A DNA stretch of 64,000 nt, from assembly GCF_019890935.1 (NCBI RefSeq), contig NZ_CP082333.1:2754001-2818000 (forward strand), in the 5' to 3' direction. This DNA is from Exiguobacterium acetylicum. Lineage in GTDB: Bacteria > Bacillota > Bacilli > Exiguobacteriales > Exiguobacteriaceae. The position numbers and the translations under genes were made by a program. The notes beneath the pieces were generated by a model. It was given only the letters and a program-made list of their open reading frames with translations, ran no database searches and had not been told where the DNA came from. This document shows positions 1 through 64,000 of this stretch, piece after piece. Within the stretch, counting starts at the first letter, position 1. Every line of letters starts with the position of its first letter.

Positions 1-1746
1 AAATTCTAGCAACTTATGCATCTGCGCTTTATACGGACTGATGATCCCTACCGTTTTAGGAACTTCCAAATGATCATTTAACCAATTAAGGATAGATTCA
101 ATAGCAAAAACTTCTCCTTCATTCGAGAAAGAAGTATTTTCTTTTTTCTCAAGGAATCGATCCGTATTCGGAGTATCTACCCAATAAAATGCATTAGAAA
201 GAATATTTTCTAATGAATGTTTTTTATCCTTTACGTTATCACCATCTAGTAACTTATTGTCATAATAATATCTAGATACTGCATCCGAAATTCCTGGACT
301 CATCCGGAATTGTTTATTTAAAAAAGTCTTTAACATTGGATGTGCGTCTTCATACATTAATCCAAATAATGACTTTTTATATACATTATTAATTTCTTCA
401 GAATCAACAATGTTATCTTTTTCTAACTTCACTAAAATATCTCGTTCTAATGTCGGACTAATTTGTTTATGGTCACCAACTAATACAATCTTCTTTCCTC
501 TGATTAAAGGAATGAGTAACTCCATACTAGAGGCGCGGGCTGCTTCATCTAAAATCACATAATCAAATTCAGTATTTAAGAAGTGATTGTTATTTGTTGA
601 GGCAATTCCTAAGCACGTTGCGCAAATAAGATTCGAAGAGTTAATATAAATGTCTTCAAAATTTTCTTGATAATATTGCAATTTTTTATTCCATTCATTT
701 TGAATATCTTGAGACATCTCGTACAATTCTAATTCTTCTTTGTTGAATTTATACGATGAAATAAAATTAGATGTACGTTCTAACTCTTGAGAAACAGAAA
801 GACTTTCAAAAGTTATTCCATAGTATGACAAGTACGTTTGAATATGATGATTTTGCTGATAAGTCAATAACGCTTCTTCAAATTTCTTAATTATCGCCTT
901 CTTTTTGGCTCTTTCTACATCAAGTTCCGAAATACGCACTTCTTGTTTCTCCATGGCATTTTGAATCGAAATTATTTCTTCATGTTCTGTTAGCTGATTT
1001 AATAAATGGACATACGATATAACCGACGAAAATTCTTTTTTAAACTGATCGATATCACTCCACAATGTTATGAATTTTTCTTTAGAAATTGAAGAAGTAC
1101 CGAAATGTTTTTCCCAAATAGAAGAGTTATTAGAAATTGCTTTTTCAATCATCTCTTTTATTTCTAAAGCTAAATTTCTTAAACCAAGTGCCTTTTTATT
1201 CATGCCAGACATCTTTTCATCAATTTTTGACAACTTATATTTATACTCGTGTAAATCCATTTCAAGATCATTCATAGCGGCATTTAGATTTTGGATATCT
1301 TTCATCAAATAAGTTTTCATTTGTTCTGATAAACCATTATATTGATTTTCTAAATCACTGATTGCACTATTTATTTGTTGCATTTCTTCAACGATTTGCT
1401 CCATTTCAGAAATACTTAGTACTCTTTCTTCTTTCAATGATTTAATTTCAGCAACTATCGCTTGGATTTCTTCAATCAAACCCTTATAAATACTCAAGTT
1501 GTTAATATTTTCTTCCGATAGTCGAATTTTATTCATTAAATCAGCACTCAATTTATTTTTTTGTAAACTATTTAAACTATTTGCTTGAATTTCCTTAATA
1601 TGATTTAAATAACTTAAGTTTTCTCCAAGCAGTTTATTTTTTGTTTGAAATTCTATATTTAATACGCGTAATTTATCTTTTAAAGAAGTAAGCTTATGCT
1701 CAAGTTGAGAAAATGCTTCATTATTTACAGTATAGTTTTGCTTCAT
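1..1746 (-). CDS. SF1 (UvrD/Dna2-like) helicase, C-terminal part; runs off left edge
   Basis: The frame is open from an ATG at 1746 to the window edge (582 codons, no stop). The first about 350 residues are Lys/Glu/Leu-rich and look like coiled coil. Then come helicase motifs: ILDEAARAS (Walker B, about residue 395), LVGDHKQISPT (motif III, about 422) and NKQFRMSPGI (motif IV, about 477), as in the Dna2/Nam7/Upf1 branch of superfamily 1. Walker A is missing here but present in the gene just upstream (1743-3158), so the two frames together make one normal helicase. The ATG overlaps the upstream stop (ATGA) and has no Shine-Dalgarno of its own beyond coupled translation. I infer that this is the second half of one protein, made by frameshifting or separated by mutation. 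Confidence 0.85.
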   Translation of the reverse strand, partial: MKQNYTVNNEAFSQLEHKLTSLKDKLRVLNIEFQTKNKLLGENLSYLNHIKEIQANSLNSLQKNKLSADLMNKIRLSEENINNLSIYKGLIEEIQAIVAEIKSLKEERVLSISEMEQIVEEMQQINSAISDLENQYNGLSEQMKTYLMKDIQNLNAAMNDLEMDLHEYKYKLSKIDEKMSGMNKKALGLRNLALEIKEMIEKAISNNSSIWEKHFGTSSISKEKFITLWSDIDQFKKEFSSVISYVHLLNQLTEHEEIISIQNAMEKQEVRISELDVERAKKKAIIKKFEEALLTYQQNHHIQTYLSYYGITFESLSVSQELERTSNFISSYKFNKEELELYEMSQDIQNEWNKKLQYYQENFEDIYINSSNLICATCLGIASTNNNHFLNTEFDYVILDEAARASSMELLIPLIRGKKIVLVGDHKQISPTLERDILVKLEKDNIVDSEEINNVYKKSLFGLMYEDAHPMLKTFLNKQFRMSPGISDAVSRYYYDNKLLDGDNVKDKKHSLENILSNAFYWVDTPNTDRFLEKKENTSFSNEGEVFAIESILNWLNDHLEVPKTVGIISPYKAQMHKLLEF

Positions 1747-3158
1747 ATTAATAATTTTTTTATTTCATTGTTCATATATTCATGAGCTTGAAATAGTGAT
1801 TTAGTTTTTTCTAATTCTGTTCTCACTTTCTTAAAATGGTTAGGACGATTTGATAATGTAGTAGTAATTTCTTTTTGCAAATTCTCGACGCGCTGCTCTA
1901 ACGCATACTGGATACTGTCTAATTCAAATTTTTCTTCAGAGCCAATACGAATAGCACGCACATTATCCTTATGACCAATTCTTTGTAAAACATTATCTAC
2001 AGCCAGATTCGTTTGTGACGATAATAATATTTTTTGATTGTCATTTACTAAATATTGAATGATTTCACTTATAACTGTCGTTTTGCCTGTTCCAGGAGGA
2101 CCTTGAATCAAGTAGATATCGTTTGTATTGAGAGCACCGAGTACGGCTTCTTTTTGTTTGTCTTTAAATTGATGGAATTGATCTGATAGTAATTCTGTCT
2201 TGACATGACTATGAACTACAGGATTTTTAATCATTCCAATTTCAGGCATGAAGGATTTTAGTTGAGCATTGGCACTCTCACCCTTGAATAACCTTTTTAA
2301 CGCTTCACTTTCCCGATTGAGTTTTGACTTCGCACCGATATCATCAATCCAAAAAAAGCCAGCCTTTAAATCATCTTTTTGAATCAATCTTTCAATAATA
2401 GACGGCTTAGATTGTATAACAATAAGACGTTCACCTTTTCTATATTTTTTAATGCGCCCCAATCCAAATCCTCTCAGTGTTTTTAAGTGTATATTTCCTA
2501 ATTGTTTTTGCTTGTTCCAAACTTCTTTTGAAGTAATCACAACATTTTCATCGACTGAATATTTGAGATTTACTCCAGATATATGCATCTTGATTAAATG
2601 GTTATCAAAATCAATAGTAAAATGTGAAAATTCAGAGACAGAATCCACTTTTTTCTCAAACAACGCTTCTTCTTGATATTTCTTTAAAATATCGTGATTT
2701 TCCCAGTATGCTACGTATTTTTCGAAGTCTAAACCATCTTCAATTGAAAAAGAATCTTTATTGTTTTTCCGTAAATCTTCTTCAATAAAATCTAATGAAT
2801 GTTCACCGAGATTCTTATTATTTTTTTCTAAACGATAGGCTTCATTCGATAAAATAAATGACCAGTTTCCCGCTAATATTTTTCCGCGCTCTAATATGAA
2901 ATGATATTGAAAGTCCTTCACTCTTTTTACTGCAACAACTTTTAAACTATTTTTTTCTGAAGCCTGAGTACATATGAGTGCAATTTTTTTAGACCAAATT
3001 TTTATTTGCTTTCCTTCTTCACGATAAAGCAATCCTCGGTTGTTAGGCGAGAATTCTCTTTGCAGTACATTTGCTATATCTGTAAATTTTTCATCATTTT
3101 CTAGAAACAACATTTTTAATTCATCAATAATTCTCGGTAATAGAATGATGTTCTTCAT
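1743..3158 (-). CDS. SF1 helicase, N-terminal part with Walker A
   Basis: 471 codons with a good ribosome binding site (GTGGAGG, ATG). The first about 340 residues form an accessory region. Walker A GPPGTGKTT starts at residue 353 and motif Ia-like SSQTNLAVDNVL follows at about 380, typical of AAA_11/DNA2-type helicases. The frame stops at TGA 1745-1743, before Walker B, so this product alone cannot be a complete ATPase. The remaining motifs lie in the -1 frame downstream. It starts 22 bp after the Hsp70 stop in the same direction, so it is probably co-transcribed and works with the Hsp70 module. The substrate is unknown; nucleic acid unwinding is inferred from the family. Confidence 0.85.
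   Translation of the reverse strand: MKNIILLPRIIDELKMLFLENDEKFTDIANVLQREFSPNNRGLLYREEGKQIKIWSKKIALICTQASEKNSLKVVAVKRVKDFQYHFILERGKILAGNWSFILSNEAYRLEKNNKNLGEHSLDFIEEDLRKNNKDSFSIEDGLDFEKYVAYWENHDILKKYQEEALFEKKVDSVSEFSHFTIDFDNHLIKMHISGVNLKYSVDENVVITSKEVWNKQKQLGNIHLKTLRGFGLGRIKKYRKGERLIVIQSKPSIIERLIQKDDLKAGFFWIDDIGAKSKLNRESEALKRLFKGESANAQLKSFMPEIGMIKNPVVHSHVKTELLSDQFHQFKDKQKEAVLGALNTNDIYLIQGPPGTGKTTVISEIIQYLVNDNQKILLSSQTNLAVDNVLQRIGHKDNVRAIRIGSEEKFELDSIQYALEQRVENLQKEITTTLSNRPNHFKKVRTELEKTKSLFQAHEYMNNEIKKLLI
1755..1761 (-). other. A AAA AAA slippery heptamer at helicase frame junction
   Basis: On the minus strand the upstream frame reads ATA AAA AAA TTA, so the seven A residues form the canonical X XXY YYZ heptamer in the zero frame. 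Slipping back one base continues as ATT ATT AAT ATG AAG, exactly the frame of the downstream helicase half. The two frames overlap only from 1764 (just after a TGA at 1767-1765 in the downstream frame) to 1743, and the heptamer lies inside that overlap. It could be programmed -1 frameshifting, transcriptional slippage on the A run, or a one-base loss from an ancestral run of eight A. Confidence 0.6.
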
Positions 3159-3180
3159 TTAGAGCCTCCACTTCATTCAA

Positions 3181-4860
3181 TTAATCTAATAAATCGGCCA
3201 TAATATCTTCTAACTCGACTTTGTCCTCATATTTTATTGCTTCAATAATTCGCTTTCCTTGCTTTACTTCATCGTGTTTCTTTAATGAATTCATTAATAC
3301 AATTGCTTCTTCAACTTGTGCATTCTCTATGAAGTGCGATTCAACTCTAGCTTTTTCTTTTCTAGAACCTTCAACGCTGTATCCATATTTGTGTGTATGT
3401 GTCACTTCGATACCTGTACTTAATATTTTTGCTTTAATCATCAAAATCCCATCAGTATTGTATTTAAAGGTAACTCGAATTTTTTCATCTCCTGCTAACC
3501 TTTCTGGAATATTTCGAACAACAAAGGTACATACTTCTTCATTATTTGTTGCTCGATTAGATTCACCTTGATAAATTTCAAGTTCCATCGTGTTCTGGTA
3601 ATTTAACGCAGTTGAATATTCTTCACTAAATTCTTCGCCGTACGGAAAGTTTTTAGTGATCAATGGATCGAATAGATCATTTTCGACTCCATCTCCGTAC
3701 TTTAATCCTAGAGTAAACGGACAAACATCCCTTGTGACTTTAATTTTTTTCTTCAACAGTGATACGCCAGCTAAGTTTGCAGCCTCTATTCCTGCTCCAA
3801 CAGCTACACATTCATCAGGATTTATGTTTCCCATAGTTGTCTTTATATTTAAATCTTTTTCAATCATTTTCTTTACTAAAGGAATCCGACTACTTCCCCC
3901 AACAAGTAATACTTTATTAATGTATCTCAAGGAGATGTTACTATCGGATGCCACACCTTTAACAATTTCAATTGTTTTTTTTATTTCATGAGCAATTAAT
4001 GCTTCAAATTCACTTCTTTTGATTTTTTTAAAGTATCCAACCGTACCCCCGTTAGGTTTTTTGAGAGCTGGTATACTGATTGAAGCCTCATATTTTTCTG
4101 TTAAATCAATTTTTAACAACTCGACCGCTTCAAAAATTTGAAGTGCACCGAATTCTAATTTCATACTTGAACCATTAAATCGAAATCCTTTTGTTTTCAT
4201 TAAATCTTGATTGATAGCATTAAACATCAAACGATCGATATCACTACCACCTAATTCACGATTACCACCAGTAGCTAAAATCTTTACACTTTGTCCACCG
4301 TAGCTACTTGTAATTTCCGCAATCGATACATCGAACGTACCGCCACCATAGTCGTAACAAAGTACAGTTTCTTTTTGGATATTATTTTCTGCAGCATACG
4401 CTAATAAGGCTGCTGTTGGCTCATTAATAATTTTACGAACATTAAATCCTGCTATTTCACCAGCCTGAATAATTTCTTTTCTTTGTGCATCTGAAAATTG
4501 TGCTGGAACTGTGATTACAACATCTTTAACCTCTTCGTTAAAGTATAGTTGTAAGTTTCGCTTGATTTTCCTTAAAATGATTGCCGCTACTTCATAGGGT
4601 TGTAACATTTGATTATCAAATTTTATTGTTTTTTTCTTGCCGATGTATTTCTTTATTTCCTTGATTCCGTCTCCTTTAGAGAAAGCACCTAGATTCTCTT
4701 TTGCTTCTTTTCCGACGATTAATTTTCCATCAAACTTACACACGACAGAAGGTAAAGTATGCTCAATATCCTTACTTTGAATGGTCCGAACTTTTCCATT
4801 TTGTACAAACGTGACTAGTGAGTTGGTCGTTCCAAAGTCTATTCCAACGATTTTATTCAT
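3181..4860 (-). CDS. Hsp70 (DnaK-family) chaperone
   Basis: 559 residues from the ATG at 4860, chosen because GGGAGGAAA sits 7 bases upstream; an in-frame start at 4887 has no such site. The N-terminal ATPase carries VGIDFGTTNS, the NEPTAALLAY segment, YDYGGGTFDVS (phosphate 2) and LLVGGSSRIP (adenosine). A beta substrate-binding domain follows (about 380-490) and then a shortened helical lid, making it smaller than DnaK (about 610). The C-terminus lacks the EEVD-type or DnaK tail. The start overlaps the stop of the upstream GrpE-like gene by 8 bp, implying coupled translation. This is not the housekeeping dnaK, because there is no grpE-dnaK-dnaJ context. I infer a dedicated chaperone for this helicase operon. 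Confidence 0.9.
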   Translation of the reverse strand: MNKIVGIDFGTTNSLVTFVQNGKVRTIQSKDIEHTLPSVVCKFDGKLIVGKEAKENLGAFSKGDGIKEIKKYIGKKKTIKFDNQMLQPYEVAAIILRKIKRNLQLYFNEEVKDVVITVPAQFSDAQRKEIIQAGEIAGFNVRKIINEPTAALLAYAAENNIQKETVLCYDYGGGTFDVSIAEITSSYGGQSVKILATGGNRELGGSDIDRLMFNAINQDLMKTKGFRFNGSSMKLEFGALQIFEAVELLKIDLTEKYEASISIPALKKPNGGTVGYFKKIKRSEFEALIAHEIKKTIEIVKGVASDSNISLRYINKVLLVGGSSRIPLVKKMIEKDLNIKTTMGNINPDECVAVGAGIEAANLAGVSLLKKKIKVTRDVCPFTLGLKYGDGVENDLFDPLITKNFPYGEEFSEEYSTALNYQNTMELEIYQGESNRATNNEEVCTFVVRNIPERLAGDEKIRVTFKYNTDGILMIKAKILSTGIEVTHTHKYGYSVEGSRKEKARVESHFIENAQVEEAIVLMNSLKKHDEVKQGKRIIEAIKYEDKVELEDIMADLLD

Positions 4861-5689
4861 GTATACTTTCCTCCCAACGATAGACAATAACTGAAGCTTT
4901 TCTCTTTAGCTCCCCTTTAACTGTAATTCCTTTTTTAATAACTTCTTTAATTAAAAATTCTTTTGAAATATCTTCTGTCTCACAAATATCGATAGTTATA
5001 CATTTATCTAATTCAAGACGATCACCAGCATCAATCTCTAAATAAGAGATGTGAAGTGCGTGTAAGATTTGATTGAACTGTGCATCAACTTCTCCAACGA
5101 ATAATTGATCAGCAGAATAACTGTATGATTCAATAAAATCTAAAATTAGAATGGCTTTTTCAACAACTTTTGCGTACATTTCTTCAAATTCAAGACTTTT
5201 AGCGTGTAACGTTTCAATCATTCTTGAATCGATGATTTCATTTTTCACTTCGTCATTATTCACATGATTAGGATCTTTGATCATTTCAATTTGTTCATTC
5301 AAAGGTTGGTTTTTCATCTTCTCAACTAAATGTGCTCCTAAATAAATCCATTCATCTACATTTTCAAGAGCTTGCGTTGTTCGTTGCGCTGTAAAATAGA
5401 AAGCTTCACGTGTGTCTATCGATAATTCTAATTTTTCTTTTATAGATTCAATCAATAAATCAAGATAATTATTGAGTAAACGGTATTGTATCCAGTCGTT
5501 CATTAAAATTAAGTCATTTGAATTCACAGGAGTTCTTTTGACGTCTTGCTTCTCAAAAGTCGTTGGTTTTGAATTAGAAGAATAGGCTTGATGAACGGTC
5601 TCCATTGATGGTTTTGAAAACTGATTAGTTTTTCGATCAAATTGAAAACGTTTGTCTTTAAATACTCCATCACAAATAATATCTGACAT
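4853..5689 (-). CDS. GrpE-like C-terminal domain protein, partner of the Hsp70
   Basis: 278 residues from ATG 5689, which is preceded by AAGGAGG with a 9-base spacer. An in-frame ATG pair at 5746 with its own AAGGAG is a credible alternative and adds 19 residues (hydrophobic, then basic). The middle is helical and acidic. The last about 55 residues (ITIDICETEDISKEF ... KKGITVKGELKRKASVIVY) follow the pattern of the GrpE beta wing, where family members end in a KGY...DRVIRPAMVKV-like strand pair. GrpE proteins are nucleotide exchange factors of Hsp70. The 8-bp overlap with the Hsp70 gene supports this pairing. The similarity was read by eye and the N-terminal half is not GrpE-like at sequence level. 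Confidence 0.5.
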   Translation of the reverse strand: MSDIICDGVFKDKRFQFDRKTNQFSKPSMETVHQAYSSNSKPTTFEKQDVKRTPVNSNDLILMNDWIQYRLLNNYLDLLIESIKEKLELSIDTREAFYFTAQRTTQALENVDEWIYLGAHLVEKMKNQPLNEQIEMIKDPNHVNNDEVKNEIIDSRMIETLHAKSLEFEEMYAKVVEKAILILDFIESYSYSADQLFVGEVDAQFNQILHALHISYLEIDAGDRLELDKCITIDICETEDISKEFLIKEVIKKGITVKGELKRKASVIVYRWEESIHE

Positions 5690-5777
5690 TTTTCTTAGCC
5701 TCCTTATTTTTTTCAGCAAGTTTTTTATACACGAAAAAAGCATCATTTTTCTCTCCTTGTGTTTGTTTCATTTATCG

Positions 5778-6281
5778 TTAAAAACTTATATAGTGTGTTA
5801 GAAAAATAGCTTTCCTTTTTAAAAAATCTAAAAATATAGATTTCTCTTTTTTACATAAAACATTAATCAAATCGTTTGAATCATTCATAAAAGATTGAAG
5901 ATAATTAGATAAAAAGAGCAGTTTCTCTTCTGAAACTGCTCTTTTGGGGACGTATTCTGCTAAAAGGTTTGCATAACAGGCATCACTTTCTTTTAAGTTA
6001 CATATGAATAAAAAAGTTTCTTTTGGATAACCTGTAGGAACAAACTTGTCAGCTAGCTTAGTTGAAGTAAGTTGTGTTAATACACTATGTTTCATTATCT
6101 TTTTGATAACTATTAGTACTTCTTCTTGCCAAAGCTTTGCTTTAATTGGCCATGCTGATTGATTTTTTATATATACCACTTCTAGACTATCTACCACTTC
6201 TTTTATGCACAGTAGTTGTAAATAATCTAGCTCTAGTTGTAAAAGATCACTTTTCTGAGATTTAGCTGTATTTACATTCAT
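5778..6281 (-). CDS. unknown helical protein of the Hsp70/helicase operon
   Basis: 167 residues, ATG at 6281 with a weak TAAGGT upstream, starting 10 bp after the CFI-box gene stop and ending 30 bp before the longer possible start of the GrpE-like gene. The sequence is rich in Leu, Lys and Glu, with predicted helices throughout, no signal peptide and no membrane segment. It has two Cys in the first half (LLCIKEV, FICNL) and two more (SDACYAN, VLCKKEK), without a clear metal-binding spacing. There is no HPD motif, so it is not a J-domain protein. I do not recognise the family. Its place in the operon suggests an adaptor or effector for the Hsp70/helicase, which is only inference. Confidence 0.65.
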   Translation of the reverse strand: MNVNTAKSQKSDLLQLELDYLQLLCIKEVVDSLEVVYIKNQSAWPIKAKLWQEEVLIVIKKIMKHSVLTQLTSTKLADKFVPTGYPKETFLFICNLKESDACYANLLAEYVPKRAVSEEKLLFLSNYLQSFMNDSNDLINVLCKKEKSIFLDFLKRKAIFLTHYISF

Positions 6282-6291
6282 ATCTTAGACC

Positions 6292-6669
6292 TTACTTCAT
6301 GAAACGAATAATAGATTTTACTATTGTTCGAACAGGTGCTTTAAAAATTGGATACTTTTTGATGAAGTCAGCCAATGAAGGACCCACTTTGTAGTAAAAT
6401 GCAATGAATTGACGACCAATACTATTATATCTAAGCGTATTGTCGCGCCAATTTCTTAAAACTTGAATCTCATATTGCAAAGGTGTTCCATATGCTGCTG
6501 TCGCTACAAAGCAATCTGAGTTATTAGAACTACCAGAGTTTCCAGAAGAACTTGAACCTGAGCTGTTTCCTGTTCCACCTGAAATTACTTTAGATCGGTT
6601 ATTACCGGCATTTCCTGAAATTACTTTAGGACGCCCACTACCTGTATTTCCACCTATCTCTTTTGACAA
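6292..6669 (-). CDS. CFI-box C-terminal domain protein with Gly/Ser/Asn linker
   Basis: About 125 residues from TTG 6669, preferred because GGGAG lies 9 bases upstream. An in-frame ATG at 6678 touches the same GGGAG and is too close, and the longest frame begins at TTG 6699. Residues 1-45 are low-complexity Gly, Ser and Asn with a repeated (P/S)KVISG(N/G) unit. Then comes CFVATAAYGTP, the hallmark of the CFI-box (CFIATAAYG) module, followed by LRNWRDN and an amphipathic C-terminus (YYKVGPSLADFI, VKSIIRFM). CFI-box modules are found at C-termini of many bacterial proteins and their function is not established. This is the first gene of the operon. It may be a short client or membrane-targeted partner of the Hsp70. 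Confidence 0.7.
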   Translation of the reverse strand: MSKEIGGNTGSGRPKVISGNAGNNRSKVISGGTGNSSGSSSSGNSGSSNNSDCFVATAAYGTPLQYEIQVLRNWRDNTLRYNSIGRQFIAFYYKVGPSLADFIKKYPIFKAPVRTIVKSIIRFMK

Positions 6670-6699
6670 AATTAACATCTCCCATAAAAAATAATTCAA

Positions 6700-7235
6700 T
6701 GTAGTAAAATTTTAATCAATTCCGTCTTTTCAATTGATTCATAATAATTAGATGATCTTTCATGACAAAAAAACATTATAAGAACACTTTTAAATGAAAA
6801 TCCATAAAATAAATAAATCACCTAAAATGTATTTTAATGTATTTTAAATCAAATATTTATCCTTTTTTAAAATTAAAGTAAATATTTGTTTTTTTAAATT
6901 CTGATTGTCTAAAAAAATACAAAAAACCGATTACTATATATAAAAAATGTGAACTGATTCCTTCAAAATGTGGGCTAACCTAAAATTTTGAGACAATATA
7001 AAAAATCTTCGGAGTAATACACTTTTAATAAGTATTAACATCGAAGGTGTTTTTGCATGAGCAAAAATGTATATTCAAGCAAAATAAAAAGATAATTCAT
7101 CGCATATAAAATCAATGCCCTACTTCTTTAGAAATCTAAAAAACCATTTACTTGAATCCTTTTTCGAAAAAAATTCTTGTTAACACTTGATTATAATTTA
7201 AATGTAGTACCATTTATTTGAAGGAGGATTATCAC
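6700..7235. other. AT-rich intergenic region between divergent genes; operon promoter candidate
   Basis: No convincing gene. On the minus strand a perfect TATAAT lies at 6780-6775 about 110 bp before the operon start, without a good -35. On the plus strand TATAAT at 7192-7197, again with a poor -35, sits 39 bp before the gene at 7236. An imperfect inverted repeat at about 7006-7050 (arms ending CTTCG and CGAAG, with TAATAC/GTATTA) is followed by GTGTTTTTG and may be a terminator relic or small structured RNA. The whole stretch is strikingly A/T-rich, like an island boundary. Confidence 0.4.
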
Positions 7236-8096
7236 ATGAAAAGAATCGGTCTCACATTACTTGCTTTGACACTCTCGACCATTCCAGTCGATGCTTCTTC
7301 AACTGACAAGAAAATCGAACAACTAAAAAAGGAATCGATTAAGGGGCATACATATTTAATGCATCGTACACTACAGATGAATCAGTCCTCCTCCAAGGAA
7401 ATTGTCTCCATCTTTAAAAAGAAAAGAGATTCATTTTTTAATGACTATATCATCCGGGTTCACGAATTAAAAAACGGAAAATGGAAAGATTCTTATAAAA
7501 AAGTCATCAAAGAACAACATGATGTAAAGTTCATTACGGCTGGTCTTATCGGAAAATATGAACATACTGTTGTTGGCTACAAATCAGGGAGTAGAAATTT
7601 CTTGAACTCCTATCTCATTGGATCACCAGACGGAGAAACACTAAAAACGATTCAAACGAAGGAAGGACTTTTGATGGGAAATGCGAAGATCGCCAAAGGA
7701 AACCTTTACTATCTCAATCGTTCCATCACCCTCAGCAAATACAGCTATAAAAAAAATAAACTGGTATCGACTGGTCAACCAACGGGTCAAGATGATCGGA
7801 TTGTAGCAGAGCAACCGGAAGTTTGGTTAGGACTGGAGCAGCTATCAGGAAGAGCGAAATATATCGGTAAACATACTTATACGGTTCATGTTGGAGATCG
7901 AATCGGAATAGGACGTAATCAATTGACCGATGCGAGAAACTACGAATATAGTCTTCATTCAAAAGGTCATTACACGATGGACTGGGACTATTCAAAAGTA
8001 AGTCTACTAACGAAAAAACCAGGTACAACGTATCTCATTCTTTCACCTGGACCTGGAGAAAAAGAAGTAGACATAGAAATCATCGTTAAAAAATGA
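7236..8096 (+). CDS. secreted protein of unknown function (paralogue of 8413-9318)
   Basis: 286 residues; ATG 7236 is 7 bases after AAGGAGGA. A signal peptide is clear (MKRIGLTLLALTLSTIP, cleavage near VDASS). The mature part is Lys-rich and mostly beta. It shares a series of short blocks in the same order with the convergent gene at 8413-9318: LIG(S)xDG, KxxLYxL, YSYKxxKL, GxDDR, a GQRFGI/GDRIGIGR-like block and a hydrophobic C-terminal strand. No catalytic motif is visible and I do not know the family. The two paralogues face each other with separate terminators, so they are regulated independently. Confidence 0.7.
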   Translation: MKRIGLTLLALTLSTIPVDASSTDKKIEQLKKESIKGHTYLMHRTLQMNQSSSKEIVSIFKKKRDSFFNDYIIRVHELKNGKWKDSYKKVIKEQHDVKFITAGLIGKYEHTVVGYKSGSRNFLNSYLIGSPDGETLKTIQTKEGLLMGNAKIAKGNLYYLNRSITLSKYSYKKNKLVSTGQPTGQDDRIVAEQPEVWLGLEQLSGRAKYIGKHTYTVHVGDRIGIGRNQLTDARNYEYSLHSKGHYTMDWDYSKVSLLTKKPGTTYLILSPGPGEKEVDIEIIVKK

Positions 8097-8150
8097 TCCA
8101 AAATCATATACCTCATGTCTGCTATACAAAACGTAGATAGGCAATATTTT

Positions 8151-8182
8151 AACGGCTTGAGCCCTTTAGGATTCAAGCCGTT
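8151..8182 (+). terminator. terminator of the secreted-protein gene
   Basis: A perfect 10-bp stem AACGGCTTGA/TCAAGCCGTT with a 12-base loop, followed by TTTAATTGTTCTTG. The rest of 8097-8412 holds no gene that I can support. Confidence 0.7.
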
Positions 8183-8373
8183 TAATTGTTCTTGTTATCC
8201 TTCTTCGTACTTCATTAGTGACGTTTCACTTTTCACTGGAAGAGTACTTACTTTTGAACACAGAAAAAGCTTCCATCAAACCAGATAAAAGTGCTTGTCT
8301 ATTGTAAACATCATTTATACGAAAGAATCTCGACTGAGCCGATTTGATAAAAATTCATCCTAATGGCTACTCT

Positions 8374-8410
8374 AAAAGCCAGTTCCTAAAATAATCAGGA
8401 ACTGGCTTTT
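8374..8410. terminator. bidirectional terminator between convergent paralogues
   Basis: A perfect 14-bp stem AAAAGCCAGTTCCT/AGGAACTGGCTTTT. The A run before it serves as a U tract for the minus-strand gene ending at 8413. Confidence 0.85.
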
Positions 8411-9336: not shown

Positions 9337-9978
9337 TTAATACATCGTCGTATCGTTATGACTAAAGCTTTTCAGTTGTTCCGAATCAACGATATACCAT
9401 CGTTCATCATCTAAGTTGTACTTCAGATAATACTTGAAGGGAACGTCATCTCCAGGATCACGCTCATCGAGTGAACCGTCATCTTCTTTGTAATAGTCAC
9501 CTTCGTAGTAGCAAATGGCTTCTACGGTCGCCGTCAAATCAGTTGCTATTTCACTGACATTAATAGATGAAGGTGAATATTCGACATCATCCAAGTATTC
9601 TTCCCAATAAACACCTTTCTTGTCCATGCTTGCATAATAACTTTGTTGCTTACTTAAATAAGCAGAAGATGTGAACAACGTGAAAGCAGATGTATCCTTA
9701 TCGATATATGCTTGTTCCCATTCTTTTGCATGTTGATATACGGTATTAACGATATCTTCTTTAACCGATTCTCGGACTTCCATGCCTCTTCCTGTCGCTG
9801 AATCTGAGAGCGACTTCCGTTGATCAACGAGCCAATCTTGTCCCGATTTCACAAGATTTAGTTCCCAGACAATCGTGCTGCCGTCCGGACGTTCGTGTAG
9901 ATACGGCTGATAAGACCGTGAGGAGTAGTCGACCTTTACTCTGACCGTCGCCTTATCTCCTTTAATCGTAATATCGTT
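9337..9978 (-). pseudogene. 5'-truncated remnant of a TcaA/YvbJ-like surface protein (NTF2-like C-terminus)
   Basis: The frame is open from just after a TAA at 9981-9979 to the stop at 9337 (213 codons), but the upstream 42 codons lack a usable start. The first possible start, GTG 9852, falls in mid-domain and has no ribosome binding site. The protein reads as the end of a larger one: a beta segment (DKATVRVKVDYSSRSYQPY), then a helix-plus-sheet domain with EWEQAYIDKDTSAF, YLSKQQSYY and KYNLDDERWYIVDSE, the pattern of NTF2-like domains at the C-termini of TcaA/YvbJ-type zinc-ribbon membrane proteins. The 5' part ends about 25 bp from the terminator of the next gene, suggesting a deletion. It could still be translated from GTG 9852 as 171 residues. 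Confidence 0.55.
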
Positions 9979-10003
9979 TTATAGACTGTAAATATAAAAT
10001 AAA

Positions 10004-13667: not shown

Positions 13668-13836
13668 GGATAAGTAGAGTTATCCTGAAAGCAATCGCGC
13701 TAGAATGCGGGTTTATCTGAAGCGAATGGACGGAAGGATGGAAAATCACACGGCTTACGCTCATCGAAAGTTAAAGAAACCGTTGGCATGATTGAAGAAA
13801 TGGAGCGTTGCGCCCGGCGGATAACTCTACTTATAC
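13668..13836. repeat. 133-bp segment between inverted 18-bp recombinase-like sites
   Basis: Left site 13668-13685 GGATAAGTAGAGTTATCC and right site 13819-13836 GGATAACTCTACTTATAC are inverted copies (17 of 18 identical). Each is itself two inverted arms (GGATAA/TTATCC) around a 6-base centre, GTAGAG on the left and its reverse complement CTCTAC on the right. Arm-spacer-arm sites with opposed spacers are what a tyrosine recombinase needs for inversion, and two such enzymes are encoded just downstream. A possible -10 TATACT (13832-13837) overlaps the right site, so inversion would change its -35 context. The rest of 13387-13890 holds no clear gene. Confidence 0.5.
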
Positions 13837-13890: not shown

Positions 13891-14325
13891 ATGAACGACT
13901 TACTACGTAACTGGATTCCCCTCGTCAACTCCCTCCTGTCCCGCCTCTCGATCCACCCGAATGAACATGATGAATGCCGGCAAGCTGCCCTCCTCCGACT
14001 TTGGAAATCAATCGAAGAAGGAAAGGTCATGACCGTCACCTTCGCCCGGATCCGGGCAAAAGGGGCGATGCTAGACTACTTAGCGACCCGTAATCGAACG
14101 CTTGCGACCGAAGTCGCGGTCGAGACGATGCCGGAGCTTCCTCGGACACCGAACGTCTCCTTTCATTATCTCCTCAGCGAACTTAAACGGGATCTGTCGA
14201 ATAAAGAGTACACGTTTCTCGAAGCCTTGATGCACGGCACGGAAGAGACGCTCGGTTACTCACCGGCGCGACTCCGTTCATTGAAGTCGGAACTCCGGCA
14301 GAAAGTCCAGTTCCTTCTCGGATGA
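13891..14325 (+). CDS. small sigma-70-like protein
   Basis: 144 residues. The N-terminal half resembles sigma region 2: HDECRQAALLRLWKSIEEGK matches the ExDLxQEaxLxLWkAie pattern and FARIRAKGAMLDYL matches the FxxYAxxRIRGAMLDYLR core. The C-terminal 50 residues (LLSELKRDLSNKEYTFLEALM ... YSPARLRSLKSELRQK) are spaced like region 4 with a helix-turn-helix. It is shorter than normal sigma factors and lacks region 3. The ribosome binding site is poor. The stop overlaps the start of the recombinase gene, so the two are translationally coupled. It may direct transcription of the recombinase module, or be a DNA-binding accessory factor; I cannot tell which. Confidence 0.6.
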   Translation: MNDLLRNWIPLVNSLLSRLSIHPNEHDECRQAALLRLWKSIEEGKVMTVTFARIRAKGAMLDYLATRNRTLATEVAVETMPELPRTPNVSFHYLLSELKRDLSNKEYTFLEALMHGTEETLGYSPARLRSLKSELRQKVQFLLG

Positions 14326-15155
14326 TGACCTACTATCAAGAACGCTTACTCGCGATCATCGAACAGGCGGACTATCGTCCCTTGACGAAAAAAGCCTATC
14401 GCTCCGACGTACGGCATCTCTGTCACCATGTCGAGCGGATCGACGTCCCGTCGCTCCAACGCTATGGTAAGTTCCTACGCGACACGTACGCCCCAGCAAC
14501 TGCCGCTCGACGACTACATGCGCTCTCCATCCTGTTTGATCAATTGGTCGCGGAACGTTCACTACAGGCGAATCCGTTGGCTCGTGTCAAAAAACCGGTT
14601 CCCGCACCCTACCGACGACTTGCCTTCACGTATGACGACGTCCACCGTGTCCTTGAGACGATTCGTGATGAGACCGTCTATGCCTTTAGCTTTCTTCTCC
14701 TGCACACGGGACTAAGGTTTTCGGAAGCCCGTGACTTACAGCTCGCAGATATCGACTTTGCGCGCGATCAGTTACTCGTCCGAAGTGGTAAAGGCGATCA
14801 ATCCCGTCAGGTTCCGCTGCATCATGCATTACGTGATGTCCTGACGCGTTACATCGAGACGATTCGCCCTGATGTCCTGCCGTTGTTTTGTGAAGATAGT
14901 GGACGACCGGTCAATCCGGCAAAGTTTCGTCGTGTCCTAAAAGAAGCAAGTGAACGATGTCTCGGACGGATCCTACGACCGCATGACATCCGGGTCACGT
15001 TCGCAACGACACTTTATCACGTGCATCAGACGGATATTCTGACCATCATGCGCTTACTCGGTCACAGCGATGTCCGGACGACTCAGCACTACGTCCTACC
15101 GTCGCACGACATTGCCCATACGTCAGTCAATCGACTCAAGCGGACAGACGATTAA
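14322..15155 (+). CDS. tyrosine recombinase/integrase
   Basis: 277 residues (ATG 14322, or 14325 one codon on). The N-terminal SAM-like core-binding domain (about 5-90; LTKKAYRSDVRHLCHHVERI) is followed by the catalytic domain with Arg in HTGLRFSEARDL, Lys in VRSGKGDQSRQVPL, HDIR in RPHDIRVTFAT, LLGHSDVRTT and the nucleophile in TTQHYV. All residues of the R-K-HxxR-H-Y set are present, so the enzyme should be active. It is coupled to the sigma-like gene upstream, and its 3' end overlaps the convergent second recombinase by 20 bp. It is neither XerC nor XerD by context. It probably acts on the inverted sites at 13668-13836 (inference). Confidence 0.88.
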   Translation: MMTYYQERLLAIIEQADYRPLTKKAYRSDVRHLCHHVERIDVPSLQRYGKFLRDTYAPATAARRLHALSILFDQLVAERSLQANPLARVKKPVPAPYRRLAFTYDDVHRVLETIRDETVYAFSFLLLHTGLRFSEARDLQLADIDFARDQLLVRSGKGDQSRQVPLHHALRDVLTRYIETIRPDVLPLFCEDSGRPVNPAKFRRVLKEASERCLGRILRPHDIRVTFATTLYHVHQTDILTIMRLLGHSDVRTTQHYVLPSHDIAHTSVNRLKRTDD

Positions 15156-15954
15156 GAACGTCCCGGACGTGATTCGTCTGGCTACGGATGTATCCTTCCG
15201 TCGTCGAGATGCTGGCGTGACCAAGCAGACGCTTTATATCGAGCAACTTCAACCCTGCCTGCTGATAAAGATAGGTCGCATAGGCGATCCGGAGCATATG
15301 CGGACGGACGTGACGCTTCAAGGACGTAAATCCAACCTCGCGAAGTGCCTTCCTTGCCGCATGTTCATTGATCATCCGTCCCGTGACGGACTGAAACAAG
15401 TAGCCGGTCGTGCGACCTGTAAGAAACAGACTAATCTTGTCGCAAAGGGTCACTCCGATTGGAACGGTCCGTGTCCGCCCACCTTTCCCGTGACGAACAT
15501 ACAGTTCATTCTTCGCTAAATCAAAATCCTGCACCGTCAACAAACGGGCCTCCATGAAGCGGAGGCCCGTTTGGCTGAGCACCTCGAAGAAGAGGCGATA
15601 GGTTGGATCTTGAATCTGTCGAATCACGGGGATCAACTGTTCACTATCATAATAGGTCTCATCTTGGAGACGTTGATGGACGATCGGACGGATCTCGACC
15701 ATCGGATTCTTTTTGATCCGTCGTCGCTCAACGAGGACATTTCCGAGCCGGTGTAAGGCATGATACCGTCGCAGGATCGTCGACGGCTTATAATGTGCTT
15801 TCATCCAGTGAAAGTAGCGTCGTAAGGACGTGACTGACCAATCGATTTGATGCAAACGCATTTGCCGAAGATCACTCCGGTATGCCTTGATCGTATGGGC
15901 TGCCCGCGAGAAATCGTTCAATAAATACTGATCGAGATAGTCATAGTGGGTCAT
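15136..15954 (-). CDS. tyrosine recombinase/integrase, convergent with its homologue
   Basis: 272 residues from ATG 15954, chosen for AAGGAGGA 7 bases upstream (an in-frame start at 16029 lacks one). Core-binding domain about 1-95 (AHTIKAYRSDLRQMRLHQIDW), catalytic residues in SQTGLRFMEARLL, VRHGKGGRTRTVPI, RPHMLRIAYATYLY, LLGHASISTT and TTEGYI. It is homologous to the recombinase at 14322-15155 over its whole length, especially in the catalytic blocks, but is transcribed towards it. Pairs of this kind can form heterotetramers, as XerC and XerD do; that is an inference here. Confidence 0.88.
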   Translation of the reverse strand: MTHYDYLDQYLLNDFSRAAHTIKAYRSDLRQMRLHQIDWSVTSLRRYFHWMKAHYKPSTILRRYHALHRLGNVLVERRRIKKNPMVEIRPIVHQRLQDETYYDSEQLIPVIRQIQDPTYRLFFEVLSQTGLRFMEARLLTVQDFDLAKNELYVRHGKGGRTRTVPIGVTLCDKISLFLTGRTTGYLFQSVTGRMINEHAARKALREVGFTSLKRHVRPHMLRIAYATYLYQQAGLKLLDIKRLLGHASISTTEGYIRSQTNHVRDVLNRLSA

Positions 15955-16190
15955 AGCTGGTTCCTCCTTCTTATAGGGACTGACGTGACAGCCGATGGAG
16001 TACATGATTGATTTTCGATGAAATATCAAGAATCGCTTTCCCTAAACAATCAATGCACGAAAAACAAAAATAAGGAAAAAAGTTACAATCATATTGAATC
16101 TATGTTCTGTAGAGCAGAAAAAGCATACCTTTCTTTACCCTGAACGACAGCGCATTGATTCCCTCCACTAATCGATAAAGGAGCTTACAT

Positions 16191-53263: not shown

Positions 53264-53318
53264 ATTGATTCCTCCTTTATATATATTTTCTGTTCCCTCA
53301 CGAGCCGAAATCAAACAA

Positions 53319-61367: not shown

Positions 61368-64000
61368 TTACTCTTGTGGACGGCGGCGGAACAGTTTCGT
61401 GAACAATCCGGCAGCTGTCGCAAGCATTCCCATGAGGGTGATCAAGAACAGATTTTCCGAAGTGTTCGGTAACGTGCCACCAACGATTCGTTTAACGGGT
61501 TGAGTGATCGGTTTTGAGACGAGTGGTGATTTATTAATCGGTGCACCGACTGTGTTCGCTGGCAATGTCGGCTTGACGCTTGGTCCGTTTACAGTGCCAG
61601 TCGAAGGAGCTGGCTTGACGTTCGGACCTGAGACAGGGCTCATGCCAGGAGTTGGTGTGACACCTGGACCATTTCCTGGTGGAGTCGTTGGAGGCGTGAC
61701 GACCGGGATTGGGATGATGACATTGTCATTGTCGTTATCATCGTTCGGATTCGAGACGTTGTCTGGATCCTCTTTCCCATCATTGTCGTTATCCTTGTCT
61801 CCACCATTGTTATTATCATTGTCACCATCATTATCTTGATCCGCATCGGCGTCGGCATCCGCATCCGCGTCGGCATCCGCATCGGCATCCGCATCAGCGT
61901 CAGCGTCAGCGTCAGCATCTGCATCTGCATCCGCGTCAGCATCCGCGTCAGCATCCGCATCGGCGTCAGCATCCGCATCCGCGTCAGCATCCGAATCGGC
62001 GTCAGCGTCAGCATCGGCATCTGCATCGGCATCCGCATCGGCATCAGCGTCAGCATCCGCGTCAGCATCCGCGTCAGCATCCGAATCGGCGTCGGCATCC
62101 GCATCTGCGTCAGCATCGGCATCTGCGTCGGCGTCGGCATCCGCATCCGCATCCGCGTCGGCATCGGCATCAGCGTCGGCGTCAGCATCCGCATCTGCGT
62201 CAGCGTCAGCATCCGCATCGGCATCCGCATCCGCATCCGCATCAGCATCCGCATCGGCGTCAGCATCAGCGTCGGCATCGGCGTCAGCATCCGCATCCGC
62301 ATCAGCATCCGCATCCGCGTCAGCATCCGCATCGGCATCCGCATCCGCATCCGCGTCGGCATCAGCATCCGCGTCGGCGTCAGCGTCGGCATCCGCATCG
62401 GCATCGGCATCCGCATCAGCGTCAGCATCCGCATCGGCGTCCGCATCCGCATCAGCATCCGCATCCGCGTCAGCATCCGCATCGGCGTCAGCATCCGCAT
62501 CGGCATCGGCATCCGCATCGGCGTCGGCATCAGCATCGGCATCCGCATCCGCGTCTGCATCAGCATCTGCGTCAGCATCAGCATCCGCATCGGCGTCAGC
62601 ATCCGCATCGGCGTCGGCATCCGCATCAGCGTCGGCATCCGCATCAGCGTCGGCATCCGCATCAGCGTCGGCGTCAGCATCCGCATCAGCATCCGCATCG
62701 GCGTCAGCATCCGCATCCGCATCGGCGTCCGCATCCGCATCCGCATCCGCGTCGGCATCCGCATCAGCATCAGCATCCGCATCCGCGTCGGCATCGGCGT
62801 CGGCATCAGCATCGGCATCCGCGTCAGCATCCGCATCCGCATCCGCATCGGCGTCGGCATCCGCATCCGCATCAGCGTCGGCATCCGCATCCGCATCGGC
62901 ATCCGCATCCGCGTCAGCATCAGCATCGGCATCCGCATCGGCATCAGCATCGGCATCAGCATCCGCATCGGCATCAGCGTCCGCATCAGCGTCAGCATCC
63001 GCATCAGCGTCAGCATCAGCGTCGGCATCCGCATCGGCATCGGCATCCGCATCCGCATCTGCGTCGGCGTCAGCATCGGCATCGGCATCAGCATCCGCAT
63101 CTGCATCAGCATCCGCATCCGCATCGGCGTCCGCATCCGCATCGGCATCAGCATCGGCGTCCGCATCAGCGTCGGCATCTGCGTCGGCGTCAGCATCGGC
63201 ATCAGCATCGGCATCAGCATCCGCATCGGCATCAGCATCGGCGTCCGCATCAGCGTCCGCATCAGCGTCCGCGTCGGCATCTGCGTCGGCGTCGGCATCG
63301 GCATCGGCATCCGCGTCGGCATCCGCATCTCCATCTGCCTCTTCATCAAAGACGATCGTATCTTGACCATCTAGATCAGCCAGCAGTTGTGCATCGATTG
63401 CAGACGTATTGACGACAGATCCTGTAACAACAACTTCGTCTTGAGCAACCCCAGCCGGTTTATCAACGATGATATTGGCACTAACAGAAGTTGGTCCAAG
63501 TACTTGTACACCTACGAGTTCATTCGATAAGTTCACCGTATCGTTCGTTACAGCAGTCAGAACATTATTTACACCTGGTAAAAGAGCTTTAACCGGGTTT
63601 AAAACAGGATTAATTAAATTTCCTGCTATTCCGGATAATTTTAAATTAGTGATGGCCTTGACCAAATCGGTCAAGGCGTCTTGAACGACTTGTTTCGTTA
63701 ACGTATCAAGATGTTGCCCTAAACCATCACTAAAATCAATCACGATTGAACCATCCGGATTAATCGTGACTGGAGCAGAGCCTTCATAATCTAGAAGTTC
63801 TGACAGTGCGGTATCTAAATTTTGTAGATTATCCAGGGCATCGGTTAATTCTGTGAGCCCTTCTACTCTCAATAAACTACCTACGACTGGAGTACGTTGT
63901 AATCGATCGATACCCGCTAATAGGTCAGTCACAGTATCTGCTACTGTTCCCGTCAGAGGATCGAGTTGACCTTTCAGCGTCGGTAAATCTTCAAGTGTAA
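61368..64000 (-). CDS. LPNTS-anchored surface protein with about 500-residue Asp-Ala repeat (5' end outside window)
   Basis: The frame is open to the right edge (a GTG at 63932 is inside the domain, not a start). The visible N-terminal part (about 200 residues) is a helical-beta region with [20 protein letters not shown] and [20 protein letters not shown]. Then 497 residues of (Asp-Ala)n with two Ala-to-Ser changes, an Asp/Asn/Gly stretch ([13 protein letters not shown]), a Pro/Thr/Val wall-spanning region ([18 protein letters not shown]) and the sorting signal [11 protein letters not shown] ... LFRRRPQE. The repeat is very acidic and may act as an extended stalk or bind Ca2+, like the Ser-Asp repeats of Sdr proteins. 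It is placed before the sortase D operon. Confidence 0.88.
61839..63329 (-). repeat. hexanucleotide-based repeat encoding (Asp-Ala)n
   Basis: About 248 units of GAY-GCN over 1.49 kb. Both codons vary freely at third positions (GAT/GAC; GCG, GCC, GCT, GCA) so that long exact copies are few. Two GCG-to-TCG changes give Ser. The opposite strand and another frame also stay open through the repeat, but these are by-products of the two-codon pattern. Confidence 0.95.

Follow-up and report, generated by a model that had tools for sequence, protein, structure and literature searches.

Mokosh type I systems (MkoA and MkoB; PADLOC PDLC03920-PDLC03922) combine a Upf1/Sen1-like SF1B helicase with a PLD-family protein encoded directly after it, and the same pair is found in the operon that we describe here. 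In dnaX and the IS3-family transposases, an in-phase A-rich heptamer lies near a stop codon of the 0 frame, and the helicase gene of this operon has both features (the heptamer being A_AAA_AAA), but its junction, unlike theirs, has neither stimulators nor conservation. It also resembles the singleton frameshift genes collected with GeneTack (PMC3711429), in which a frame break that is confirmed by homology occurs in one genome at a poly-A run.

The stretch of DNA analyzed ("the window") comprises 64,000 nucleotides of Exiguobacterium acetylicum, taken from the main contig (bases 2754001-2818000) in a 3.39-Mb genome of 3 contigs; negative positions lie beyond its left edge. Weighing the evidence given below, we consider it probable that the helicase gene was split by an ordinary one-base frame break in an A-run of a Mokosh-like helicase gene.

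The operon compared with Mokosh type I

The operon is read from the minus strand, has a GC content of ~30%, and encodes, in order, a 278-aa protein, an Hsp70/DnaK-like chaperone, the helicase in two open reading frames (ORF1 and ORF2), an MkoB-like PLD protein, and a 498-aa protein. The domain pair that marks an MkoA helicase, AAA_11 with AAA_12, was found on the two helicase halves, though in two frames, and an MkoB PLD-family protein with an HKD motif is adjacent. The gene of this PLD protein (-314 to -1885, minus strand, outside the window) matched MkoB with an E-value of 3e-42 and carries the HKD motif HEKLLICD at residue 468; over its full length, the protein matched plasmid-borne MkoB neighbours of kinase-helicases.

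In other respects, the operon differs from Mokosh type I. It has no MkoA kinase region: a search for an N-terminal protein kinase gave no hit in ORF1, and positions 1-316 of the MkoA model remained unmatched, whereas the kinase is present in the homologous system of genome G210. It also has the Hsp70 gene and the gene for the 278-aa protein upstream, and its helicase lies in two frames. The Hsp70/DnaK-like chaperone gene (3181..4860, minus strand, 559 aa) is located upstream of ORF1 and matched Pfam HSP70 with an E-value of 3e-103, while its match to NCBIfam DnaK was below the cut-off; the phosphate-binding motifs are present. Its start is overlapped by the gene for the 278-aa protein (4853..5689, minus strand), which matched no family, and the 498-aa protein gave no match over any family cut-off. 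Since the kinase region is absent and an Hsp70 gene is found instead, we call the operon Mokosh-like and not type I. Judged by its gene composition, the system putatively works like Mokosh, and the gene cluster is probably anti-phage. In the literature searched, neither a paper dealing with both Mokosh and Hsp70 nor an Hsp70-associated Mokosh-like variant was found, and the kinase-less, Hsp70-linked Mokosh-like operon is a more unusual item than the split of its helicase.

Hsp70 genes are linked to MkoA/MkoB-like pairs at more than this locus: the linked genes lie upstream here (3181-5689) and downstream in genomes G330 and G282, where the Mokosh-like locus (L054 5464-13554) also holds a 665-aa unknown protein. 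Searches of the 38 family genomes, of the class sample, and of plasmids gave no homologue of the 278-aa protein. We considered whether it could be a GrpE and rejected this, as the likeness was confined to the C-terminal tail and seen by eye only, BLAST, hhalign, and Pfam returned nothing, and a single-sequence model reached a pLDDT of 38. On cyanobacterial plasmids, grpE is located directly upstream of related hsp70 genes.

The island and its surroundings

The operon lies in an AT-rich island of ~12.9 kb, which extends from -4512 to 8374 (L002 5488-18374) and occupies 1..8374 of the window. Three close relatives (G001, G016, and G018) are collinear with this genome up to -4512 or -4518 and again from 8374, and thus have an empty site. 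The island is flanked by an imperfect 53-bp terminator-like repeat whose copies are 79% identical, and each of the three relatives has a single copy. Because the site is empty in the relatives and the 278-aa gene occurs in no other genome of the 38-genome family set, the island was probably acquired horizontally.

Several features outside the island were observed as well. At 13670-13834, perfect 16-bp inverted repeats (ATAAGTAGAGTTATCC) enclose 133 bp, and the segment is oriented alike here and in G016 but inverted in G001 and G018. Beside it are genes for a sigma-70 region 2 protein (13891-14325) and for tyrosine recombinases (14322-15155 and 15136-16029), and the segment is likely a site-specific DNA switch. 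For the protein encoded at 9337-9980, matching was confined to residues ~193-407, the C-terminal half, of a protein of 405-407 aa in G001, G016, and G018, and its own N-terminal part has no match there. An 854-aa ORF at 61368-63932 consists of many short repeats, and its repeat content differs from that of G001. The second contig is matched by several Exiguobacterium plasmid records; a stretch of it (L178; G000 contig C2, ~58-61 kb) matched plasmid-borne msr(G)/mef(F) macrolide resistance genes, with an identity of up to 99.8% to a plasmid of Macrococcoides canis.

The helicase junction

ORF1 (1743..3158, minus strand, 471 aa) encodes the N-terminal half of an MkoA-like SF1B helicase with Walker A (GPPGTGKTT) and motif Ia. 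The C-terminal half is encoded by ORF2, also on the minus strand and in the -1 frame, which runs from 1764 leftward past the window edge to -323 (L002 9677) and contains DEAAR, GDHKQ, and the later SF1 motifs; its first ATG is at 1746, and from there it has 689 aa. The claim of the earlier note that Walker A lies in the upstream frame and Walker B with motifs III and IV in the downstream -1 frame was thereby borne out. Pfam AAA_11 is cut in two between ORF1 and ORF2, while AAA_12 falls within ORF2, and the two halves matched complementary stretches of the PADLOC MkoA model, positions 317-737 with ORF1 and 678-1099 with ORF2 (E-values of 1e-35 and 6e-96). When read through, the sequence aligned on both sides of the junction with proteins that are uninterrupted in G210 (1194 aa), G330 (1021 aa), and G282 (1020 aa). 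By these motifs and alignments, ORF1 and ORF2 are one helicase gene in two frames.

The minus-strand sequence of the junction is ATG AAC AAT GAA ATA AAA AAA TTA TTA ATA TGA. The A-run at 1755..1761 (minus strand; T on the plus strand) is exactly seven bases long and forms an A_AAA_AAA heptamer in phase with ORF1 at the site of the frame change, and the ORF1 stop follows three codons past it. This stop (TGA, 1743-1745) overlaps the first ATG of ORF2 (1744-1746) in an ATGA at 1743..1746 of the minus strand, upstream of which there is no Shine-Dalgarno sequence. A TGA at 1765-1767 precedes the opening of the ORF2 frame, and the overlap that is open in both frames therefore spans 1743-1764, or 22 nt (25 nt if the bounding stop is counted). 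The overlap of about 20 bases, the in-phase heptamer, and the ATGA described earlier were thus all found. The break falls within a coiled-coil-like insert, ~60 residues from its start; this insert separates motif Ia from Walker B and varies widely in length among homologues. From its first ATG, ORF2 has 689 stop-free codons, neither ORF has a further lesion, and the remaining helicase motifs are all intact, as is the HKD nuclease motif of the operon's PLD protein.

Single-sequence protein scans of genome and viral contigs gave no close helicase homologue, while 80 distant loci were returned by an alignment-based scan. The blocks with Walker A and Walker B share a single uninterrupted frame in 79 of 83 homologous loci; this tally was made by profile, as counting by regular expression misses Walker B sites of the DEVS type. 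On inspection, none of the four exceptions was a -1 split. In L097, both Walker motifs are inside one 535-codon frame; L137 is a single 1035-codon frame with an unrecognised Walker A; the N-half query gave no score in L145; and in L150, the halves are in the same frame with ~0.9 kb between them. The MkoA-type matches of the class search are stop-free open frames of ~1050-1400 aa, and the closest full-system homologues, those of G210 (helicase of 1194 aa plus MkoB), G330, and G282, are likewise uninterrupted. Conservation of the split, which the earlier note had proposed to check by aligning homologues, is therefore not what this alignment reveals. With identities of ~25-37% (none closer than ~37%), the homologues indicate that the family makes no use of such a site but do not speak against its invention in this lineage. 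No relative sharing the split was found among the genomes searched, the junction DNA pattern had no match in the viral contigs, and family-, class-, and phylum-level searches with the 278-aa protein and the helicase N-terminus returned this genome only.

Origin of the frame break

The earlier note had left the choice between a programmed -1 frameshift and the loss of one base. The evidence favours the loss and tells against regulated production of two forms, given uninterrupted homologues and no stimulators. Programmed or usefully leaky -1 frameshifting (or slippage of RNA polymerase) would make full-length helicase as a minority product and a Walker-A-only form as the majority. Consistent with this, a slippery heptamer of the form X_XXY_YYZ is in the right phase within the overlap and followed by a stop three codons downstream, as in real -1 sites, and both ORFs are free of other lesions. 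Given the codon usage of ORF1, A_AAA_AAA would be expected in phase within seven codon positions ~2% of the time, but homopolymers are also the places where indels arise. On the other hand, the split is not conserved among the homologues, the 30 nt upstream contain no Shine-Dalgarno-like stimulator (GAGG, GGAG, AGGA, GGNGG, or AGGKG), and the folding of the downstream RNA is no stronger than that of shuffled sequence (z +0.74 to +1.48). Such Shine-Dalgarno-like or structural elements are absent from some bacterial frameshift sites. In E. coli, heptamers without stimulators reach at most ~10x a background of 0.055%, and it is A_AA.A_AA.G, not A_AA.A_AA.A, that is among the most efficient (PMC4066793). 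A_AAA_AAA also occurs in phase twice elsewhere in the operon (3247 codons), in the Hsp70 gene and in the 498-aa gene, with the frame unchanged; thus, the heptamer alone is no signal. Seven A's are also short for RNA-polymerase slippage, selection against which is evident in many genomes only at nine A or T (PMC1088944). The A-run, which is the only feature that the junction has in common with programmed sites, is equally expected at an indel, and we regard programmed recoding as very unlikely.

Two further explanations give the split a use. If slipped-strand mispairing altered the length of the A-run, it would toggle the helicase, and with it the putative defence system, within the population. 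Costly defence genes are known targets of phase switches, which favours such toggling. A poly-A run of at least seven bases at a frame break is, moreover, the pattern by which phase-variable genes are flagged (PMC3711429). Yet the genes of the island have ~14 coding-strand A-runs of 7-8 bases, and a break is found at the helicase run alone; such a tract is nothing unusual in DNA of 30% GC and, at seven A's, is short for a hypermutable one, and the genome searches gave no second isolate with the locus. We consider phase variation highly improbable. Alternatively, the helicase could be the product of two genes, with ORF2 translated by termination-reinitiation at the ATGA and the halves assembling in trans through the coiled-coil insert, and the break does fall in this variable-length insert, where a split would be best tolerated. 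However, the ATG of ORF2 lacks a Shine-Dalgarno sequence, whereas the 278-aa, Hsp70, and ORF1 genes have clear GGAGG-type sites, and no homologue is split at that place. When we removed one A in silico from each of the 39 A-runs of the operon (>=6), the overlap was <=30 nt in 9 cases and an ATGA arose in 7, and because one-base losses so often yield one or the other, the short overlap and the ATGA are uninformative. Separate translation of ORF2, as the earlier note had suggested, is weakened accordingly, and a two-gene helicase is the least probable of these readings, with hardly any weight in our assessment. That the A-run is a working switch in the broad sense, by recoding or by A7/A8 phase variation, and that the Hsp70-linked Mokosh-like helicase-nuclease system, being costly, is thereby held mostly off while the short Walker-A half is made by default, we judge unlikely.

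The reading that we prefer is a one-base length change in the A-run, which would have broken the MkoA-type SF1B frame inside the variable coiled-coil insert. The GeneTack authors attribute a homology-confirmed frame break seen in a single genome to indels or sequencing errors (PMC3711429). Most probably, replication slipped here recently, within a defence-like operon acquired by horizontal transfer; a base-calling error that went uncorrected is less likely. When ORFs of the relatives were compared with this genome (45 from G001, or 15,291 aa, 39 from G016, and 11 from G018), no other homopolymer frame break was found over the ~46 kb of genes covered; the one candidate, near 53,285, lies outside a homopolymer, differs in length by two bases, and falls in a stretch where G016 is gap-free. 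Among ~95 ABC-transporter domains genome-wide, none with an interrupted frame was found over the family cut-off. Because the genes compared have no other homopolymer frame break, a real mutation appears somewhat likelier than an assembly error, and we rejected low assembly quality as the default answer; an error is possible, not expected.

We infer that such a mutation would be recent and would inactivate or strongly lower the helicase; the intactness of all the other motifs fits a young event. As read, the gene yields a 471-aa product that lacks Walker B and the later motifs, and full-length helicase would be made at trace level at most, by ribosomal or RNA-polymerase slippage, while the rest of the operon (the 278-aa protein, Hsp70, and the PLD nuclease) is intact. 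Trace amounts of the full-length protein from leaky slippage are likely under any reading. There are points against a one-base slip. With the nearest homologue at ~37% identity, a lineage-specific programmed site is still conceivable; the 689 stop-free codons and intact motifs of ORF2 are also explained by selection on a protein that is still used; and the heptamer has the correct phase and a stop three codons later, like a genuine -1 site.

Should the break be a simple indel, it warns against taking A-runs in 30% GC DNA for programmed sites, because the phase, the short overlap, and the ATGA look right for the reason that they are largely set by where indels occur. If the switch were true, this would be a rare defence helicase under recoding or phase variation. 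Beyond the split, a kinase-less MkoA-like helicase with an MkoB-like PLD protein and an Hsp70 of its own suggests that Mokosh-type systems may be able to swap the part that does the sensing or activating.
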